NCBI GenBank assembly: GCA_944388165.1
Contig: CALXHS010000086.1
Coordinates: 1 to 33,702, forward strand
Direction of reading: 5' to 3'
Length of the DNA stretch: 33,702 nucleotides
Source: an uncultured Gemmiger sp.
GTDB taxonomy: Bacteria; Bacillota; Clostridia; Oscillospirales; Ruminococcaceae
Shown here: piece by piece, positions 1-8,071 of the stretch
Layout: the number at the start of each line of letters is the position of its first letter
How positions within the stretch are numbered: the first letter of the stretch is position 1
Position numbers and translations under genes: made by a program
Notes under the pieces: model-generated
What the model saw: the letters and a program-made list of their open reading frames with translations, nothing else
Told to the model about the DNA's origin: nothing
Database searches by the model: none

Positions 1-1195
1 CGTCTGGCTGCCGGTCACATTGTAGGTCGCACCTTCACCTTCCGCGAAGTCATCGCCGCCAACAGTAACATTGGCATTGGTCAGAGGATCGCCGTCATAC
101 ACCTTGCTGTCCGTAGCACTCGTCAGCGTCACAGACCGCTTTTTAACGGTCAGCTTGCCGGCCTGAGTCTTAACGGAGAACTGATCGGTAACAGTGTTGC
201 CCTCGGAATCCTTCACCACAGCGGTACCGGTTACATTGGAAGTATATTCTCCCGCATCCGTTCCGCTCGCACTGGCGCTCAGGCCTTCCACCGTGTAGGT
301 GTTACCTTCGACCTCAAAGCTCAGCGTTTCGAATCCGCTCACGGAATGCTCGTCGCCGTCGTACTTCGCGCTGTCGCTCTTCGCAACCACCGTGATCTCA
401 TACTTGGCATCGCGGTTCGTAACAGTCAGGGTGCCTTCAATCTTGGTGATATTGTAGTTGTCGGCTTTCGTACCTTCGTTCAGCGTGTAGGTGAAGAAGT
501 TCGTGCTGGAGCCAACCAGAGTCTGGCTGCCGGTCACATCATAGGTAGCGCCTTCGCCGTCGACGAAATCGTCACCGCTAACAGTAACATTCTTATTGAT
601 CAGCGCAGTGCCGTCGTATTCCTTCGTATCCGTAGCACTGGTCAGGGTGACATTACGCTTTTCGATGCTCAGGGTGCCAGGCTGCGTCTTTACGCTGAAC
701 TGGCCGGTAACATCGTTGCCGTCCTCGTCCTTCACAACCGCATCGCCAGTCACATTAGCGGAATATTCGCCCGCGTCCGTTCCCTTCGCTTCTGCGGTCA
801 GACCGCTCACAGTATAGGTTTTGCCTTCAACCTCAAAAGTATCCTTGACAATACCGCTCACCGTATGCTCAGAACCGTCATACTTCGCGGTACCGCTATT
901 TGCAGTCACCGTGATCTCATACTTGGCATCACGATCAATAACAGTCAGCGTACCTTCCCGTTTGGTGATGTTGTAGTTATCCGCCTTCGTACCGTCATTC
1001 AGGGTATACTCGAACTCGTTCGGGCTACTACCCACAACGGTCTGGCTGCCAGTCACATTGTAAGTAGCGCCTTCATCCTCAGCAAAACCGTCTCCGCCAA
1101 CAGTAATTCCATTGTTGGTCAGCGGAGTGCCGTCATACTGCTTGGAGTCCGTGGCGCTGGTCAAGGTAACGTTACGCTTTAAAACAGTCAGCGTA
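1..1195 (-). repeat. 519-bp tandem repeats inside the adhesin gene
   Basis: The boundary motif that encodes K-R-N-V-T-L-T-S-A-T-D begins at equivalent places near 137, 656 and 1175, giving a period of exactly 519 bp (173 residues) twice. Each unit contains one K-x-YDG-T/D-x-L half and one AKYDG-x-EH half. The copies differ at many positions, so they are old duplications and not a recent amplification. The array continues past the left edge. Confidence 0.85.
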
Positions 1196-4100
1196 CCAAC
1201 TCTCGTGCTGCTAATTTGATAGTCGCTTTCGAGAGCAGTACCAGTCCATGCCAGGGTATACGTATTGTCCGATACACCCGCGTTGGTCTGGGTGCCAGTC
1301 ACCGTAAAGGCAACCGTTTCACCGTCAACCAAGCCTTCAACGCGGCCTCCCGCAGTCAGCGCCTGACCGTTATAGGTGCGTTCCTCGCTATCAGTAATAA
1401 TCTGAATGGGCTTCGGAGTAACAGACAGAGCGCCATCCCTCAAGGTAATTGCAAACTGTTTGGTGACGTCCTTACCCGAAGCATCGGTAATGGTTACGGT
1501 TTCAATCTGATTTTTACCGCTATCACCCACATGAATGATGTCGTTCTCCAACGGCTTCATCACAGCGTTGGCTTTGTATCCGCTCGGCAGAGCCTCTTGA
1601 TTCTCGATATACCAATTTTCATCAGGGACTACCAGCTTCTGTCCGTCATATACCTTGCTGAAGTCTTTCGCCTGAATGGTAAGGGGCGTCTGCTCCGCAA
1701 ATACAGCCTCATAGGTTGCATCCGCCTGGACGTTCTGCGGAGCGTACAGTGCCTCATCAGACAGGTAATCCTGGGCATCCTTCAGGCGCCAACCAACGAA
1801 ATACCAGCCTTCTTCCGCTACAGCCGTAGAGCCCTCAGCATTTTCGCCAATTTTAACCTTTTCTTCCTGGACGGTAACAGTGCCGCCTTCCGTGGCCACA
1901 TACCGCAGGGTTGCTTCCGCACGTTCCCAGTTCGCAACAAAGGTCAGATTGCCCGTAGACCCCTGGTCAACGGAAACATTTTTTGTAGGTTCATCAATTG
2001 CACCGGTAGACACACCTTCCGTTGTCCAGCCGGTGAAGGTGTACCCTTCGCAGGTCGGTTCAGCCAAAGGGAAGGTAGGCGTTTCGACAGTATAGGTAGT
2101 GGGGTTATTCGGCATCACTACCTCTGCCTCTGCGTCCTCCAGACCTTCTTTGTAGGTGATGGTAAAGTCCGCCAGTTTCAGTTCAAACCTGACATACGTA
2201 ACAGGTTCCGTGAAGGTAACACGCTGGCTATCGCTTCCCGCCAGAGTATATCCCTGACGCAGCAGATCATTCAAGATCTCGCCATCTGCGCGAATCGTCT
2301 GTGTCTGTGCTTCCGGAGTCAACTCTTCGCTCGACCCCTTCACATCCTCATTGTACACATACTGAACGACATACTTATGGTCTGCCGCGGAAGAATACAC
2401 AAAGATAACCGTATTATCCGCGCCGCGTTCCAGCGTTATTTCTTTAGTAACAGCATCGGGCCAATACCCTGCATACTCACCTTCCGGTGTTTTGGCTTTC
2501 ACAGTATACGTCGCTCCGACGGTACCGCTGCGAGTATCCGACGGCGCCACTTCCGTGCCGTCTTCGGTCTGGTATTTTACCGTATACTCTACCGTATTCT
2601 TCAGGGTCAGTTTGGCGTAAATTGTGGTGTTCTCGGTAATAGGCTTATTGAAGTCGTAGAGTTTCGTATAATCGGCGTCTTCATACCAGCCGTTAAAGGT
2701 ATACCCCGCCGGCACATCCGGAATAAACGATTCCACCGTTCCGTTATACACAACCGATTCGACCGTATCCTGCATGCCTTCAACGCTGTAAGTGAATGTT
2801 ACAGTCAGTTCAGGCATTTCCCAATCCGCATACAGAACCAAGCCTGTAGGCATTTTGCAGTCGCCCTCATAGAGCACGGTGTGAGCAGGGTCGGTATACC
2901 AGCCCTTGAATTCAGCATTTTCCGGCACGTTCTGCTTTGCTTCGGCCTCTTCAAGCTGTGCAGAAAAATCCACACCGTACTTCAGGTTATAGGTTCCCAG
3001 TTCCTCGCCGCCCAGACCATAGAGGGTCAGCGGATACTCATTGGCAGAATAATAGAAATAAAATTCCGTCTCGTTTTTCCCCAGCTCATACCAACCGGTA
3101 TTTCCGCTTTGCCAGGGACTAACACTGGTATAATACCGCTCGTAACCAGTAATCGGAAAATATTCCTCGTCATAGGTCAGACTGCCATCGAAATCAAGAC
3201 GTGTGGTCGTATATTCACGGAACTTTTTACCATTAGACAATGGATCCGTGATCGTACCTTCCGGATCTTCTACGTAATAATGGAGATACCGTGTCGTACC
3301 AGAACTTTCTGTACGTACGCAACGCATGTCTTCACCAGGCATGTTATTTTGATAAACAGTTTGCGTATTACTCGTCCAACTCCACTGATACGCCGCATGC
3401 TGGGAATTTGCACCAACATTGTCAATCCACCAGTCACCAATGTAAGCACCGTACTTTTCTGTCAATCGAGTGATTTCTTGGTCCCATGAATCAACAAAGA
3501 TCAACGTATACTTATTACGTGTGTATTTCACGTTGATAACAGTGGAGCCGTCCGCCGCCACAGTCGCCGAGGTGCTATTAGCAAAGGTAAAGTGCTGGGT
3601 GTCAAACCCGGTCGGCTTTGGGGAATTGCCGTCAGCACTTACAGTGGTGCCAACCTGTGCGGTAGCCGCAACACTGCCCGCATAGGAGTAACCGTCATCA
3701 TCCGCATTTTCGGTAAAGTAGGCGAGGGTGTAGCTCACGCTCGCAGGCGTCCATTTGGCATAGACCGTCACATCGCCGGTCAGGGTAATGGACTCCGGTG
3801 CTTCCTGCGTGCAACCTGCATCGGTATACCAGCCGTCGAAGGTATATCCCTGACGGGTGGGCTGCGGTTCCCACGTTGCCGGGGTTGTTACATAACAGCT
3901 TTCGGTATGGGTGTGTTCCGTTTTAGTACATACCAGCTCCCACCATTCGAACCCCAAAAAGCTATGCCGCTCGTAGCACGGCTCTGCATTATAGGTATGC
4001 GTATGCTCTTCCAGGCCGCAGGTCCGTTCAGTCGATCCTGCCGTCTTGCTATAAACGGACACACTCTGCTCGTACTTTCCAGTCTGGGGTTCCACATAGC

Positions 4101-5361
4101 TGCCGCCCTGGGAATCATAATTCAGGGTATAGGTATTACGGGTATAATTCACCGTAACAACCAAGCCTTCGGCATTCAGCGGCAGCTGGGTGATTTCTTC
4201 GGCAGTAAAGCCTTCCGTATCTCTGGCTTCAGCTTCGGTCATATCGCCATAGCGGCCGCTCTTAGTCTCCGACTCTTCAGTCGTCCCGCCATCCAAACTT
4301 TCATACACATGCTTGACCGTATACGAAATGTTTTTAGGCGTAACAATCACCGTCACCTCATAGGTGCCGTCCGCCACACCACTGAGGTCAGCCTTAATAT
4401 GGGTGCCATCCAGACTGAAGACACCGCTTCCGCCTTGGAGAGCAATATCATAATATTCCAGCCCCGAAATTTTGGGGGCAATATCAATGTCAACAGCGAA
4501 ACCGGTTTCCGCATTATACTCGACAGTATCCGCTGCCGCCACAGTAAGCTGCTGGTCATCAATATAGTTGACCTTTACAACCTTGGAGCCTTCCGGCACA
4601 ATATCCACATCTTCAAAGGTGCCGACAAACCTGGAGAAAAGGGAAATGCCCGGCGCGGTTTTGCGCACAGCCATGTAGCCTTCCGCCACTTTGTAAGTCA
4701 GGGTAATATAAGCCGCGTCATCTTTGAAAGAATCCATAGAGACGGAATCCGCCTGTACAAACTCCAGGCCTTCCCGCTCATAGGCCAAAGCGGAAGCATC
4801 ATACACACCGTCTACAAAATCCTCCGCAGACAGCGTATATTCGATATCTTCATCGGCAAAGGTACCGATCTCGGTTTCCAGAACATGGGTTACATACAGC
4901 TTGTAACTCTGGGGTTCCGGAGTGGGAGTCGCAGTGGGCTCCGCGGTGGGAGTCGCGGTCGGCTCCGCGGTGGGAGTCGCAGTGGGCTCCTCAGTGGGAG
5001 TCACAACAGGCTCCTCAGTGGGAGTCACAGCGGGCTCCTCAGTGGGAGTCACAGCGGGCTCCTCAGTGGGAGTCACAACAGGCTCCTCAGCGGGAGTCAC
5101 AACAGGCTCCTCAACGGGAGTCTCCGCAGGCTCCTCAACGGGAGTCTCCGCAGGCTCCTCGGCGGGAACCTCAGCCGGCTCCTCCTCAACAGGCACAGAT
5201 TCGCCTTCAGCACCGGTCTCCTCAGCCGGCTCGCTGGTCGGCGCAGGTGTCGCCGCGAGTTCATCGTCGGCAAAGACCTGGACCGGCGTCAGGGAAGCCA
5301 GCATCGCAAAGACCAGCAGAACGCTGATCACGCGGCGTGCCTTGAACCATAACTTGTCCAT
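1..5361 (-). CDS. Giant secreted repeat adhesin (MucBP/InlB-like/YDG repeats), N-terminal part
   Basis: An uninterrupted reading frame of 1,787 codons runs from ATG at 5361 off the left edge, so the C-terminus and any wall anchor are not visible. Residues 1-31 form a signal peptide (Lys/Arg-rich start, hydrophobic core, then VQVFA-DDE). Residues 38-150 are a Pro/Glu/Thr stalk of 8-residue repeats. Then follow MucBP-like segments (for example YTVKHVYESLDGG and VEYTVKYQTEDG), several InlB-type repeats ending in GWY..D/YAKW, a Cys/His-rich insert, and from about 1680 leftward domains containing the motif KxYDG, which become a 519-bp tandem array. The ribosome binding site AAAGGAG lies 7 bases before the ATG. 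Such proteins act at the cell surface in binding glycans, mucus or other cells; the ligand here is unknown. The gene is visibly less GC-rich than the genes from 5771 onward, which fits horizontal acquisition. Confidence 0.9.
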   Translation of the reverse strand, partial: MDKLWFKARRVISVLLVFAMLASLTPVQVFADDELAATPAPTSEPAEETGAEGESVPVEEEPAEVPAEEPAETPVEEPAETPVEEPVVTPAEEPVVTPTEEPAVTPTEEPAVTPTEEPVVTPTEEPTATPTAEPTATPTAEPTATPTPEPQSYKLYVTHVLETEIGTFADEDIEYTLSAEDFVDGVYDASALAYEREGLEFVQADSVSMDSFKDDAAYITLTYKVAEGYMAVRKTAPGISLFSRFVGTFEDVDIVPEGSKVVKVNYIDDQQLTVAAADTVEYNAETGFAVDIDIAPKISGLEYYDIALQGGSGVFSLDGTHIKADLSGVADGTYEVTVIVTPKNISYTVKHVYESLDGGTTEESETKSGRYGDMTEAEARDTEGFTAEEITQLPLNAEGLVVTVNYTRNTYTLNYDSQGGSYVEPQTGKYEQSVSVYSKTAGSTERTCGLEEHTHTYNAEPCYERHSFLGFEWWELVCTKTEHTHTESCYVTTPATWEPQPTRQGYTFDGWYTDAGCTQEAPESITLTGDVTVYAKWTPASVSYTLAYFTENADDDGYSYAGSVAATAQVGTTVSADGNSPKPTGFDTQHFTFANSTSATVAADGSTVINVKYTRNKYTLIFVDSWDQEITRLTEKYGAYIGDWWIDNVGANSQHAAYQWSWTSNTQTVYQNNMPGEDMRCVRTESSGTTRYLHYYVEDPEGTITDPLSNGKKFREYTTTRLDFDGSLTYDEEYFPITGYERYYTSVSPWQSGNTGWYELGKNETEFYFYYSANEYPLTLYGLGGEELGTYNLKYGVDFSAQLEEAEAKQNVPENAEFKGWYTDPAHTVLYEGDCKMPTGLVLYADWEMPELTVTFTYSVEGMQDTVESVVYNGTVESFIPDVPAGYTFNGWYEDADYTKLYDFNKPITENTTIYAKLTLKNTVEYTVKYQTEDGTEVAPSDTRSGTVGATYTVKAKTPEGEYAGYWPDAVTKEITLERGADNTVIFVYSSAADHKYVVQYVYNEDVKGSSEELTPEAQTQTIRADGEILNDLLRQGYTLAGSDSQRVTFTEPVTYVRFELKLADFTITYKEGLEDAEAEVVMPNNPTTYTVETPTFPLAEPTCEGYTFTGWTTEGVSTGAIDEPTKNVSVDQGSTGNLTFVANWERAEATLRYVATEGGTVTVQEEKVKIGENAEGSTAVAEEGWYFVGWRLKDAQDYLSDEALYAPQNVQADATYEAVFAEQTPLTIQAKDFSKVYDGQKLVVPDENWYIENQEALPSGYKANAVMKPLENDIIHVGDSGKNQIETVTITDASGKDVTKQFAITLRDGALSVTPKPIQIITDSEERTYNGQALTAGGRVEGLVDGETVAFTVTGTQTNAGVSDNTYTLAWTGTALESDYQISSTRVGTLTVLKRNVTLTSATDSKQYDGTPLTNNGITVGGDGFAEDEGATYNVTGSQTVVGSSPNEFEYTLNDGTKADNYNITKREGTLTVIDRDAKYEITVTANSGTAKYDGSEHTVSGIVKDTFEVEGKTYTVSGLTAEAKGTDAGEYSANVTGDAVVKDEDGNDVTGQFSVKTQPGTLSIEKRNVTLTSATDTKEYDGTALINKNVTVSGDDFVDGEGATYDVTGSQTLVGSSTNFFTYTLNEGTKADNYNITKIEGTLTVTNRDAKYEITVVAKSDSAKYDGDEHSVSGFETLSFEVEGNTYTVEGLSASASGTDAGEYTSNVTGTAVVKDSEGNTVTDQFSVKTQAGKLTVKKRSVTLTSATDSKVYDGDPLTNANVTVGGDDFAEGEGATYNVTGSQT
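4912..5151 (-). repeat. 24-bp repeats encoding the PxxTPxEE stalk
   Basis: About ten copies of an 8-residue unit (PAETPVEE, PVVTPTEE, PAVTPTEE, PTATPTAE and variants) are encoded in near-identical 24-bp units. This is a typical Pro-rich spacer that holds adhesive domains away from the membrane. Near-identity at DNA level makes the copy number likely to vary between strains. Confidence 0.85.
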
Positions 5362-5401
5362 GAAATTCTCCTTTCCGAGCGTTTCCGCCCTGCACTAGTT
5401 A

Positions 5402-5414
5402 CCCCGAAACGGGG
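5402..5414. other. Small palindrome CCCCG-AAA-CGGGG in the adhesin leader
   Basis: A perfect 5-bp stem with a three-base loop sits between the adhesin -10 box and its ribosome binding site, so it would form in the 5' leader. No T-run follows in either direction, so it is not an obvious terminator. Confidence 0.4.
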
Positions 5415-5436
5415 CAATTCATGACTTTATGAAGCT

Positions 5437-5470
5437 ATTATATACGTCCTCGGTCACAAAATGGTCACAA
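5437..5470 (-). promoter_or_regulatory. Adhesin promoter with 11-bp-period direct repeat
   Basis: On the minus strand a perfect TATAAT lies at 5442-5437. Nine bases upstream begin two exact copies of TTGTGACC (5459-5452 and 5470-5463) with an 11-bp period. They occupy the place of the -35 box, and no good -35 hexamer is present. This geometry is typical of a promoter activated by a response regulator that binds direct repeats on one face of the DNA. The regulator is unknown. Confidence 0.5.
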
Positions 5471-5550
5471 CTTTCCCGCAAAGCCCCCGCCGCCGCCGAA
5501 AAATCTTCTGAATTCAGAAACTTTTTTCCGTATTTTCGGCGACTTTCTCG

Positions 5551-5581
5551 TTTTGTAACTATTTTGTAATCAATCTATCAC
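5551..5581 (+). promoter_or_regulatory. Direct repeat TTTTGTAA x2 and weak promoter for the recombinase operon
   Basis: TTTTGTAA occurs at 5551-5558 and again at 5562-5569, an 11-bp period. It resembles the TTGTGACC pair of the adhesin promoter, but in the opposite orientation. TTGTAA at 5553-5558 followed after 17 bp by TATCAC at 5576-5581 could serve as a weak promoter for the rightward genes. Apart from these sites, 5362-5648 contains no gene I can support. Confidence 0.35.
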
Positions 5582-5648
5582 ATATTCACGTACATTCCTC
5601 CGTACCCATAGAAGGATATATTCCACTGCCACAGAAACGGAGGTCGCC

Positions 5649-5774
5649 ATGGATTCCCCCATTCTTTTGGTTCATGATACGTTCCGCTCCGCCGTCCCAT
5701 CCCACCGTGAAGAAGCACTGAAGCAACTGGCCTGGACCTGGCTGCGCATCGCCATCGGTCAGACCTGCCCATGA
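5649..5774 (+). CDS. Small 41-residue protein coupled to the serine recombinase
   Basis: ATG at 5649 follows a good ribosome binding site (ACGGAGG, about 5 bases upstream). The frame encodes 41 residues beginning MDSPILLVHDTF, with a potentially amphipathic helix (HREEALKQLAWTWLRIAI). Its stop TGA overlaps the recombinase start in an ATGA arrangement, so the two are probably translationally coupled. I do not recognise the family. A small protein in this position could influence recombination, for example as a directionality factor, or could simply be a leader that couples translation. Both are inference. Confidence 0.6.
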   Translation: MDSPILLVHDTFRSAVPSHREEALKQLAWTWLRIAIGQTCP

Positions 5775-7321
5775 GAGCCGCCATCTACTGCCGCCTGAGC
5801 AAAGAGGACGAAGTCCTGCCCGGCAGCGAAGCCCAGGAATCCGAAAGCATTCAGAACCAGCGGGCCATGCTGCTGGAATATGCCCGCCGGCACGGCCACG
5901 AAGTTACACATATATATTGTGACGAGGATTATTCCGGCATCGACCGCACCCGGCCGGACTTCAACCGAATGCTCGAAGCCGCCAGAGCGGGAGAGTTTGA
6001 ATTGATCCTGGTCAAGACTCAGTCCCGTTTTACCCGGGATATGGAACTGGTGGAAAAGTATTTACACGGCCTGTTTCCTTTGTGGGGCATCCGGTTCATC
6101 GCGGTGGTGGACCACGTGGACACCGACGATACCGCCAATAAAAAGAGCCGCCAGATCAACGGGCTGATCAACGAGTGGTATCTGGAAGACCTGTCCGCCA
6201 ATGTGCGGTCGGTGCTGACCCACAAGCGCCGGGCGGGGCAGTACATCGCGGCCTTTCCCCTGTACGGCTACGCCAAGGACCCCGCCGACCACAACCGGCT
6301 GGTCATCGACCCCGAAGCCGCCGGGGTGGTGCGGCGGATCTTCGGGATGTACCTTTCGGGGCTGGGCACCACCCGCATCGCCCAGGTGCTGAACCGGGAA
6401 GGCCTGCCGCCCCCGGGGCGTTACCGCCTGCTGAAAGAGAACCATCTACCTTATTATAATGGAAAGCACGCCGGGGAAAGCTGGAGCAAAGCCACTGTCC
6501 ACCGCCTGCTCACCACCCGCACCTACGCCGGGGACCTGGAGCAGGGCCGTCACCGCCGGATCAGCTACAAGTCCTCCAAAACCATATGGCTGCCCCGCGG
6601 CCAGTGGATCGTGGTGCCCGGCACCCACCCGGCCATCATCGACCGGGAAACCTTCGACCGGGTGCAGCAGATGCTGCACAGCGGCGCCCGCAGCGGCACG
6701 GGCGGCAGCATCCATCCGCTGGCAGGCCGGGTGGTCTGCGGACTGTGCGGCCGGGTGATGGAGCAAACCGCCTCCGGCCGTAAGGGGGCGGACGGCAGCC
6801 GCACCCGGTATTTCCGCTGCCGTACCGCCCTGCGAGACCGCACACTCTGCCCCGGTCAACCTTATCTGCCGGTCGCCGCCTTGGAAACAGCGGTGCTGGC
6901 GCGTATCCGGGCACTTCTGGGACCTTACCTCGACCCGGAAGATCCGTCTCTCTGCCCGCCGGGTCCCGATGAGGACGCTGCAGAAAGAGAAAAGCGTCAT
7001 CTGCACACCGAGCTGGAACGCCGCCGGGCCGCCGTGGAGGCACTGTATCTCGACCGTTGCGGCGGCGTGGTGGAGGAAGAGGAGTTTCAGACGCTGCATC
7101 GCCGGTTCCGTCAGGAAATCACCCAGCTGGAGCAGCGTCTGCACGCTCTGGAATCCGCCCCCGCACCGGAATCCGCGTCGGCTGCCCGGCAGCGCCGGCT
7201 GCGGCAGGCCGCCGCCCTGCCGGTACTGGACCGGGCGCTGGTCAGCCTGCTGGTGGAAGAGGTGCGGGTCTATCCGCCGGAAAGCGGCACCCGAAAGGTG
7301 GAGATCCGCTGGAAATTCTGA
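5771..7321 (+). CDS. Large serine recombinase (site-specific integrase)
   Basis: This 516-residue protein has the three parts of large serine recombinases. The N-terminal resolvase/catalytic domain starts MRAAIYCRLS, with Ser10 as the expected nucleophile and the later motif KTQSRFTRD containing conserved arginines. The recombinase domain follows (about 155-290, NEWYLEDLSANVRS and FPLYGYAKDP). A zinc ribbon uses Cys323, Cys326, Cys350 and Cys360, and a charged coiled-coil region follows at about 400-480. Such enzymes integrate and excise mobile elements between short attB and attP sites, and usually lie next to one end of the element. Here the gene ends about 20 bp before an interrupted SleC-like gene. 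It has no adjacent phage or conjugation genes in view. An alternative role is inverting a nearby DNA segment, but I found no long inverted repeats around the adhesin promoter. Confidence 0.95.
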   Translation: MRAAIYCRLSKEDEVLPGSEAQESESIQNQRAMLLEYARRHGHEVTHIYCDEDYSGIDRTRPDFNRMLEAARAGEFELILVKTQSRFTRDMELVEKYLHGLFPLWGIRFIAVVDHVDTDDTANKKSRQINGLINEWYLEDLSANVRSVLTHKRRAGQYIAAFPLYGYAKDPADHNRLVIDPEAAGVVRRIFGMYLSGLGTTRIAQVLNREGLPPPGRYRLLKENHLPYYNGKHAGESWSKATVHRLLTTRTYAGDLEQGRHRRISYKSSKTIWLPRGQWIVVPGTHPAIIDRETFDRVQQMLHSGARSGTGGSIHPLAGRVVCGLCGRVMEQTASGRKGADGSRTRYFRCRTALRDRTLCPGQPYLPVAALETAVLARIRALLGPYLDPEDPSLCPPGPDEDAAEREKRHLHTELERRRAAVEALYLDRCGGVVEEEEFQTLHRRFRQEITQLEQRLHALESAPAPESASAARQRRLRQAAALPVLDRALVSLLVEEVRVYPPESGTRKVEIRWKF

Positions 7322-7338
7322 GCCCGGCGTGGATGGTG

Positions 7339-7360
7339 CTGTCCCGCCCAGGTGGGATAG
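7339..7360. other. Candidate attachment site at the SleC/element junction
   Basis: A 22-bp imperfect inverted repeat with 8 of 11 base pairs (plus one G-T) is centred between 7349 and 7350. The clearest arms are TCCC at 7342-7345 and GGGA at 7354-7357. It lies exactly where SleC similarity ends on the minus strand. Short imperfect palindromes with a central crossover dinucleotide are what large serine recombinases use. The partner site is outside the window, so this is a prediction. Confidence 0.4.
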
Positions 7361-7929
7361 ACCTCGCCCGAAGCCACCGTGGCGATATATTCCTGAAAGC
7401 TCACCGTCACGTTGCGGGCGTTTTCTGTGGGGCGGCCCAGGTGCACCGTGATGTTCTTGGGGATGACCACCTCCTGCAGCACCCGCCCCTGCAGTCCGGG
7501 ACAGTTACCCGCCGGGGCAGGTCCGCTGCCGCCCCGGCCGGAAAACAGCGGGTGGGGCGGAATGCGCACGTTGCTTTCCTGGGTGATGCGGGCGGATTCC
7601 ACCGCACCGTCGGCGGGCAGAAAGGCCAGCCGGGCCACCGTCTGCTGGCCGTCAAACACCTGCACCCCCTCCACCCGCACGGTCTGCCAGCCGTCCTTTT
7701 CGGCCACCAGGTCGTACACGGCATAAGGCCGCACCGTGGTATTTTCTTCATCCAGGCTGTATGAGCGGTCCGGTGCAGCCAGACCTTCCTGCAGGGCGAC
7801 GCCGTTTTCGTCGGTTTCCAGGCGGGCGGCGGGCACCCCGGTCTCATCCAGAATGGTCACCCGCACCCCCGCCAGCGGCGCGGCCTCTTCGGCCAGGGCC
7901 GCCGCGATCCATATACTGCCAGTGGGCAT
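7348..7929 (-). pseudogene. SleC-like peptidoglycan-binding protein, truncated after 194 codons
   Basis: ATG at 7929 follows the ribosome binding site AGGGAGGTG. The protein starts MPTGSIWIAAAL, with an N-terminal carboxypeptidase-regulatory-like fold (VRVTILDETGVPAARLETDENG) and then the part typical of clostridial SleC-like proteins (IPKNITVHLGRP, VTVSFQEYIATVASGEVYPTW). In that family the conserved core continues with PENALRANIYAQISFALNR or similar. Here similarity stops after Trp194 at 7348, and the frame runs antisense to the recombinase tail, ending at 7270. The family includes spore cortex lytic enzymes and related peptidoglycan-binding proteins. The rest of the gene is not between 1 and 7348, so it is either lost or lies left of the window beyond an inserted element. 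Confidence 0.75.
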
Positions 7930-8071
7930 AGATAACACCTCCCTGCCCACAGGATATGACCGGGTCTGCCGCCAGGTGTCCTGCGGCGGGAAAATTCGCC
8001 GCCGGGTACTCTTCCCATTTTTCCGGGTTTGCGCTATACTGAAAGAAACAAATCCTTTGGGGGTATACGAA

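Follow-up and report, generated by a model that had tools for sequence, protein, structure and literature searches.

A probable sleC-intervening element with a serine recombinase, inserted at one recurring codon in several gut genera

Late sporulation genes that are interrupted by DNA elements and rebuilt by their excision have been described in several cases. The gene gerE of Bacillus cereus ATCC10987 harbors gin, an element of 28.6 kb with three recombinases, the excision of which has been demonstrated (PMC5595907). The skin element of sigK employs a small factor, CD1234, of 53 amino acids, and yin in yabG, SPbeta in spsM and vfbin in spoVFB are likewise located inside late sporulation genes restored by excision (PMC10747680). 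YabG processes pre-pro-SleC in C. difficile (PMC10747680), where expression of sleC depends on sigma-K (PMC5025042). Here we describe an interruption of sleC itself in an uncultured Gemmiger sp.

The window, meaning the whole stretch of 33,702 nucleotides analysed, is a complete contig (G000:C86:1-33702) of a draft genome of 2.38 Mb, with no assembled DNA to its left. When the frame is compared with SleC relatives, the match that starts at 7929 on the minus strand ends at Trp194 (codon 7350-7348), as the original prediction had it, and is followed by 25 unrelated codons and a stop at 7270. A 3' half had been expected in the same genome and was found: the remaining 679 codons of sleC start at C36:4206, with the codon right after Trp194. 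Its position beyond the other end of the element was correctly foreseen, but not its place to the left of the window, as the partner contig is C36; similarly, the recombinase gene does adjoin the junction, at a measured distance of 26 nt instead of the proposed 27 bp. The identity of the gene was established on an intact relative (G007), homologous over the pre-pro-SleC core, which matches PDB 9h68, 'Spore cortex-lytic enzyme pre-pro-form', over residues 36–408 (E = 1.7e-71). This relative contains five PG_binding_1 stretches, and the cut falls inside a sub-threshold SpoIID match at its residues 173–238.

Relatives do not share this point as the natural end of the gene. Among 30 related loci, the window's own included, 19 read through, 10 are cut at this codon, and in one (G032) the contig ends exactly there. 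In each of the 10 cut loci, the missing part begins precisely one codon on, at another place in that genome. The interruption is thus confirmed, and such an abrupt gene end is far beyond chance, since a third of the loci end at this very codon with the other half at the next. An in-frame start with a Shine-Dalgarno-like stretch was present in only 3 of 21 C-halves, suggesting that the C-half is mostly no gene of its own.

Reading from the N-half junction, the short spacer is followed by the genes for the recombinase, a microprotein and a giant surface protein, and then by 185 nt and the second half of sleC (Table 1). A repeat of 87 nt, with 4 mismatches, occurs at the ends of both C86 and C36; one or more copies may therefore be absent from the assembly, which makes the element size of ~11.5 kb a minimum-like estimate. 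The adhesin ORF is open at the contig edge, with 1,787 codons on the window contig and 1,339 more on C36, corresponding in total to more than 3,100 aa with a tail that resembles a membrane anchor, and its stop lies 185 nt short of the second half of sleC. The adhesin had been proposed as cargo of an element reaching past the window edge, in agreement with an ORF that runs on in C36 to the other end. Taken together, the matching 3' half and the junctions support the core of that proposal, namely a serine-recombinase element that splits sleC and has one half at each end.

Table 1. Position of the features identified in the window
Feature	Position	Strand	Basis
sleC-like gene, 5' part, codons 1-194	7348..7929	-	match to SleC relatives; SleC identity of an intact relative
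Large serine recombinase, 516 aa	5771..7321	+	Resolvase, Recombinase and zinc-ribbon domains
41-aa microprotein, candidate recombination directionality factor	5649..5774	+	stop overlaps recombinase start (ATGA)
Giant signal-peptide surface protein, adhesin-like, cargo	1..5361	-	List_Bact, MucBP and InlB-type repeats
Putative attL; core CCTGG 7352-7348, element side from 7347	7320..7380	-	junction comparison
Putative sleC sigma-K-type promoter: CACC, 15 nt, TCATATCCTG	7950..7978	-	pattern in orthologous loci; own match alone p = 0.07

The window's element contains the recombinase, microprotein and adhesin ORFs only, with no phage structural or replication genes in the sequence available, the inter-contig gap of repeat length being unseen. 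In a PHROGs scan of two of its proteins, the recombinase alone gave a match. A phage origin was considered and rejected: relatives of the recombinase occur in 593 phage records, all below 60% identity, and the best of these, MT837840.1, was read as bacterial DNA, as it also carries a sleC N-half and bacterial-looking genes. Further relatives were detected in 310 plasmid records (all below 60% identity) and in three viral contigs (37–40% identity).

The insertion point lies between YPTW and PEQ, after the codon for W, in the sleC frame. The CCTGG core is repeated at both ends of the window's element and the sleC halves adjoin codon to codon; the junctions are such that a precise excision would restore the frame. 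Once joined, the ends of this element can be read as an inverted repeat: 9 nt on either side of a TG pair perfectly, and farther out the symmetry is shifted by one base. At its best-scoring centre 18 of 26 positions pair, a score equalled in 1 of 200 shuffles. Across 19 elements, the joined ends had TG as the best centre of the inverted repeat in 15, and in a shuffle test of 10 elements (200 shuffles each) 8 were matched by at most 3 shuffles. For G276, 15 of 200 shuffles scored as high, and the joined ends of the 59.7-kb span in G031 showed no inverted repeat (10 of 26 pairs). In G032, both contigs (G032:C104:1 and G032:C2:1-9) end precisely at the recombination codon and have CCCACCTGG in common, which looks like a branch of the assembly graph at this point.

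Within the genus, the N-part of sleC is present in 33 of 35 genomes. In the family, 138 of 247 genomes match the intact-core profile, and among the family matches listed at least 9 genomes outside the genus, from 5 other genera, match from the cut onward only; their N-halves were located and end at the cut. Among the 80 best loci from a scan of named genomes, 76 continue across the cut, with gaps of 0–9 nt, and 4 were without the N-part, including that of Faecalibacterium longum. No N-half turned up for L102 (Faecalibacterium sp. E09__bin130) in a search for it, and L098 and G105 are one genome. Subdoligranulum variabile TSDC17.2-1.1, an isolate sequenced with long reads, has a 31,979-bp element at sleC. 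Overall, a split gene with both halves was detected in the window's genome and 20 others; the two parts fit together without loss or gain of a codon in 10 genomes within the genus, 10 outside it, and S. variabile, spanning 5 further genera plus the F. longum and S. variabile records. The insertion interrupts the reading frame of a sporulation gene, both halves of which are kept.

Ten elements are whole on one contig, with sizes of 2,959 (twice), 7,866, 7,875, 9,919, 12,046, 18,974, 19,825, 31,979 and 59,733 bp. A large serine recombinase is located at one end: related enzymes were found in 21 of 21 elements, 21–374 nt from a junction in 20 of them and 2.2 kb away in G261. It is placed at the N-half side in 15 elements and at the C-half side in 6, and two tandem recombinases are present in three (G002, G030 and G031). 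Adhesins are the cargo in G000, G033 and G014, with three to four of them in G009; G245 carries an FMN-dependent dehydrogenase, G083 an MCRA-family oleate hydratase, and other elements carry transport, sensor or glycosyltransferase-like ORFs, as read by eye only. Beside the C-half of G027 (L064, G027:C87:151000-162588), ORFs resembling an IS30-type transposase and filamentous-phage Zot were noticed, also by eye.

In 21 of 21 elements the recombinase is preceded by an ORF of 33 to ~83 codons with the pattern V.E.F.S....R...L..L, picked by eye among the upstream ORFs. Its substitutions are those of coding sequence (pS 0.40 vs pN 0.23, four pairs, p = 1e-4). The five microproteins scanned against Pfam gave no match up to E = 0.05, and the four scanned against PHROGs gave none either; L083 is represented in the alignment and in the Pfam scan by its C-terminal part only. 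Small ORFs of a loosely comparable composition also lie upstream of four more distant recombinases located elsewhere, so the microprotein may belong to a wider recombinase class. By analogy with the small partners of known systems, it is the most likely candidate for a recombination directionality factor.

The arrangement could also arise if sleC were simply a conserved attB for serine-recombinase islands, its permanent inactivation being tolerated by non-sporulating hosts. In its favor, the cargo is diverse and of use to the host, with adhesins, an oleate hydratase, an FMN dehydrogenase, and genes for transport and sensing; loss of sporulation is common in gut Firmicutes (PMC8340488); and in G263 the C-half of the split gene is closed by a premature stop after 227 codons. 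We nevertheless consider this explanation unlikely, as the N-halves were stop-free in 21 of 21 cases and 20 of 21 C-halves stayed open over the length read, counts that include G032, with S. variabile treated separately. Moreover, dN/dS values for the N-half were 0.10–0.64 in 20 split pairs vs 0.14–0.58 in 8 intact pairs, and for the C-half 0.05–0.35 (20 split pairs) vs 0.07–0.37 (8 intact pairs), with G032, where the contigs do no more than stop at the codon, counted as split here and in the sleC tree.

In a sleC tree of 55 cores, with 22 rows labelled as split, 11 state changes were obtained (bootstrap 10–12), compared to a mean of 17.3 for shuffled labels, and 0 of 500 shuffles were as low as 11. 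At least 8 changes are forced by well-supported branches, and the window's clade of five is supported at 99/96. In the recombinase tree, where G191_2 is a spurious frame (branch length ~10), the four type A enzymes group together (100/99) with the same branching order as in the sleC tree, and both trees also agree for G194/G083/G263 and G016/G027/G006; the agreement holds inside type A, g50 and type C. Because of this agreement the split looks old within these three groups, and it was probably inherited in those clades, with the frames remaining open. In clades with an apparently ancestral split, both halves are under purifying selection as strong as that of intact genes, which argues against permanent inactivation. 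Two unsplit copies were peculiar: that of the single-contig genome G004 (L048, G004:C1:2567959-2568633) has an in-frame TAG, and the intact frame of L010 (G023:C120) ends in a peptide that we take to be translated sequencing adapter, the contig end being probably an artefact.

Spore genes are also kept, a further point against an integration site in non-sporulating hosts. SpoIVA was over the cut-off in 12 of 14 genomes, the window's included, being absent in G245 and present as a fragment only in G276. Matches of sigma-E/K type were detected in 14 of 14 genomes, two genes in that of the window, none of them over the family cut-off, below which the B. subtilis control also fell. Six of these genomes show the second sigma gene as partial matches only, in two parts in G004, G014, G083, G302 and G305 and with one part listed in G006. 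The sigK-like pieces lie at G004:C1:831773-844909, G014:C13:12874-42358, G302:C11:125909-167712 and G305:C34:119702-139508, on C48/C49 of G083 and on C54 of G006, and a SpoIVCA-like serine recombinase is found between or beside them in the four cases fetched. Judged by the positions of the sigma-factor matches, the split would be as in a skin-interrupted sigK. The window's own gene, which we infer to be sigK, is one open frame.

Just upstream of sleC, the pattern mACm-N14-16-kCATA, counted after inspection of the aligned upstream regions, was present in 19 of 30 loci, compared to a mean of 0.06 and a maximum of 1 in 200 shuffles. Promoters were scored with what we take to be the sigma-K and sigma-E consensus forms. 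Upstream of sleC (14 of 30 loci; related sequences, which make the p-values too small), Fisher p was 9e-9 for sigma-K and 0.045 for the sigma-E control. Upstream of the microprotein-recombinase operon (18 of 21 elements, non-independent, so again too small), it was 0.001 for sigma-E and 0.95 for the sigma-K control, the window's own sigma-E match having p = 0.58.

These promoters bear on a second alternative, in which excision in a subpopulation of growing cells would act as a reversible switch that turns sleC on and the adhesin off. It is true that the element carries a recombinase and a surface protein, and that yin of C. botulinum is excised in part of the culture at all time points (PMC10747680), but the sleC promoter is of late-sporulation type, so rejoining in growing cells would be of no evident use, and other elements at the same codon are without an adhesin, so adhesion is not their common point; we regard this as very improbable. 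In the same vein, nothing seen supports the original prediction that one event would switch cortex biology and adhesion together: if excision took place only in the terminal mother cell, like that of skin systems, the inherited genome would keep the adhesin and nothing would be switched in the lineage. An assembly artefact, as might be suspected from the mostly draft MAGs and from an element spread over two contigs, can be dismissed, as ten elements are whole in one contig, including those of the isolates F. longum CLA-AA-H243 and S. variabile TSDC17.2-1.1, and related recombinases are present at the joints.

The reading we favor, and hold to be quite probable, is a sleC-intervening, skin/gin-like element that is excised in the mother cell. 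The recombinase and the microprotein would be made in the sporulating mother cell, where the sleC-specific recombinase, with the microprotein acting as directionality factor for excision, would cut the element out precisely and rejoin codons 194 and 195 in frame. This would occur after sigma-E activity and before, or as, sigma-K starts sleC transcription, the rejoined gene being transcribed from the sigma-K-type promoter, while the forespore, as the germ line, would retain the element and its cargo, here the giant adhesin. The sequences themselves show the split with its two halves, the att structure, the recurrence, the association with recombinase and microprotein, the conserved frames and the sigma-K-type promoter; that the element is excised, when and in which cell this happens, and what the microprotein does, we infer by analogy with skin and gin. 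Neither an excised chromosome nor a circle was seen, each split genome showing one N-half and one C-half, and a scan of viral_contigs returned 0 joined circle junctions and 0 empty sites.

A wider reading, which we put forward tentatively and judge slightly short of probable, is that sleC offers a family-wide, cargo-neutral docking codon. The recombinase-microprotein pair would hold host-useful cargo in the germ line and be tied to the host by the dependence of a late sporulation gene on mother-cell-specific excision, which would imply hidden sporulation in Faecalibacterium and Gemmiger relatives. These gut bacteria are often treated as non-sporing, and the conserved split halves would be genomic evidence for a complete sporulation programme in them. 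If excision is real, sleC would be added to the genes that are reassembled by removal of DNA (sigK, spsM, spoVFB, gerE and yabG), in this case at a single codon used repeatedly in several gut genera. A recombinase family that, with an undescribed small partner, reuses one site for many cargoes would moreover be useful for integrase work. Among the literature matches listed, no title refers to an interrupted sleC.

Compared with the described systems, the elements yin, SPbeta and vfbin are prophage-like (PMC10747680), whereas the window's element has no phage gene among its three ORFs. The skin element in sigK of C. difficile and B. subtilis is alike in its serine recombinase adjoining the split gene and in its mother-cell logic (PMC5025042); it differs in the gene, and the skin-type recombinases beside the split sigK of relatives (four cases) are only ~22–26% identical to the sleC enzymes. 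Like the sleC element, gin is non-phage and splits a mother-cell sporulation gene, and it has a large serine recombinase and a small directionality factor (GirC, GirX) with precise rejoining (PMC5595907). Unlike gin, the present element resides in sleC, its excision is predicted from sequence, and its insertion codon is shared by many elements in different genera.
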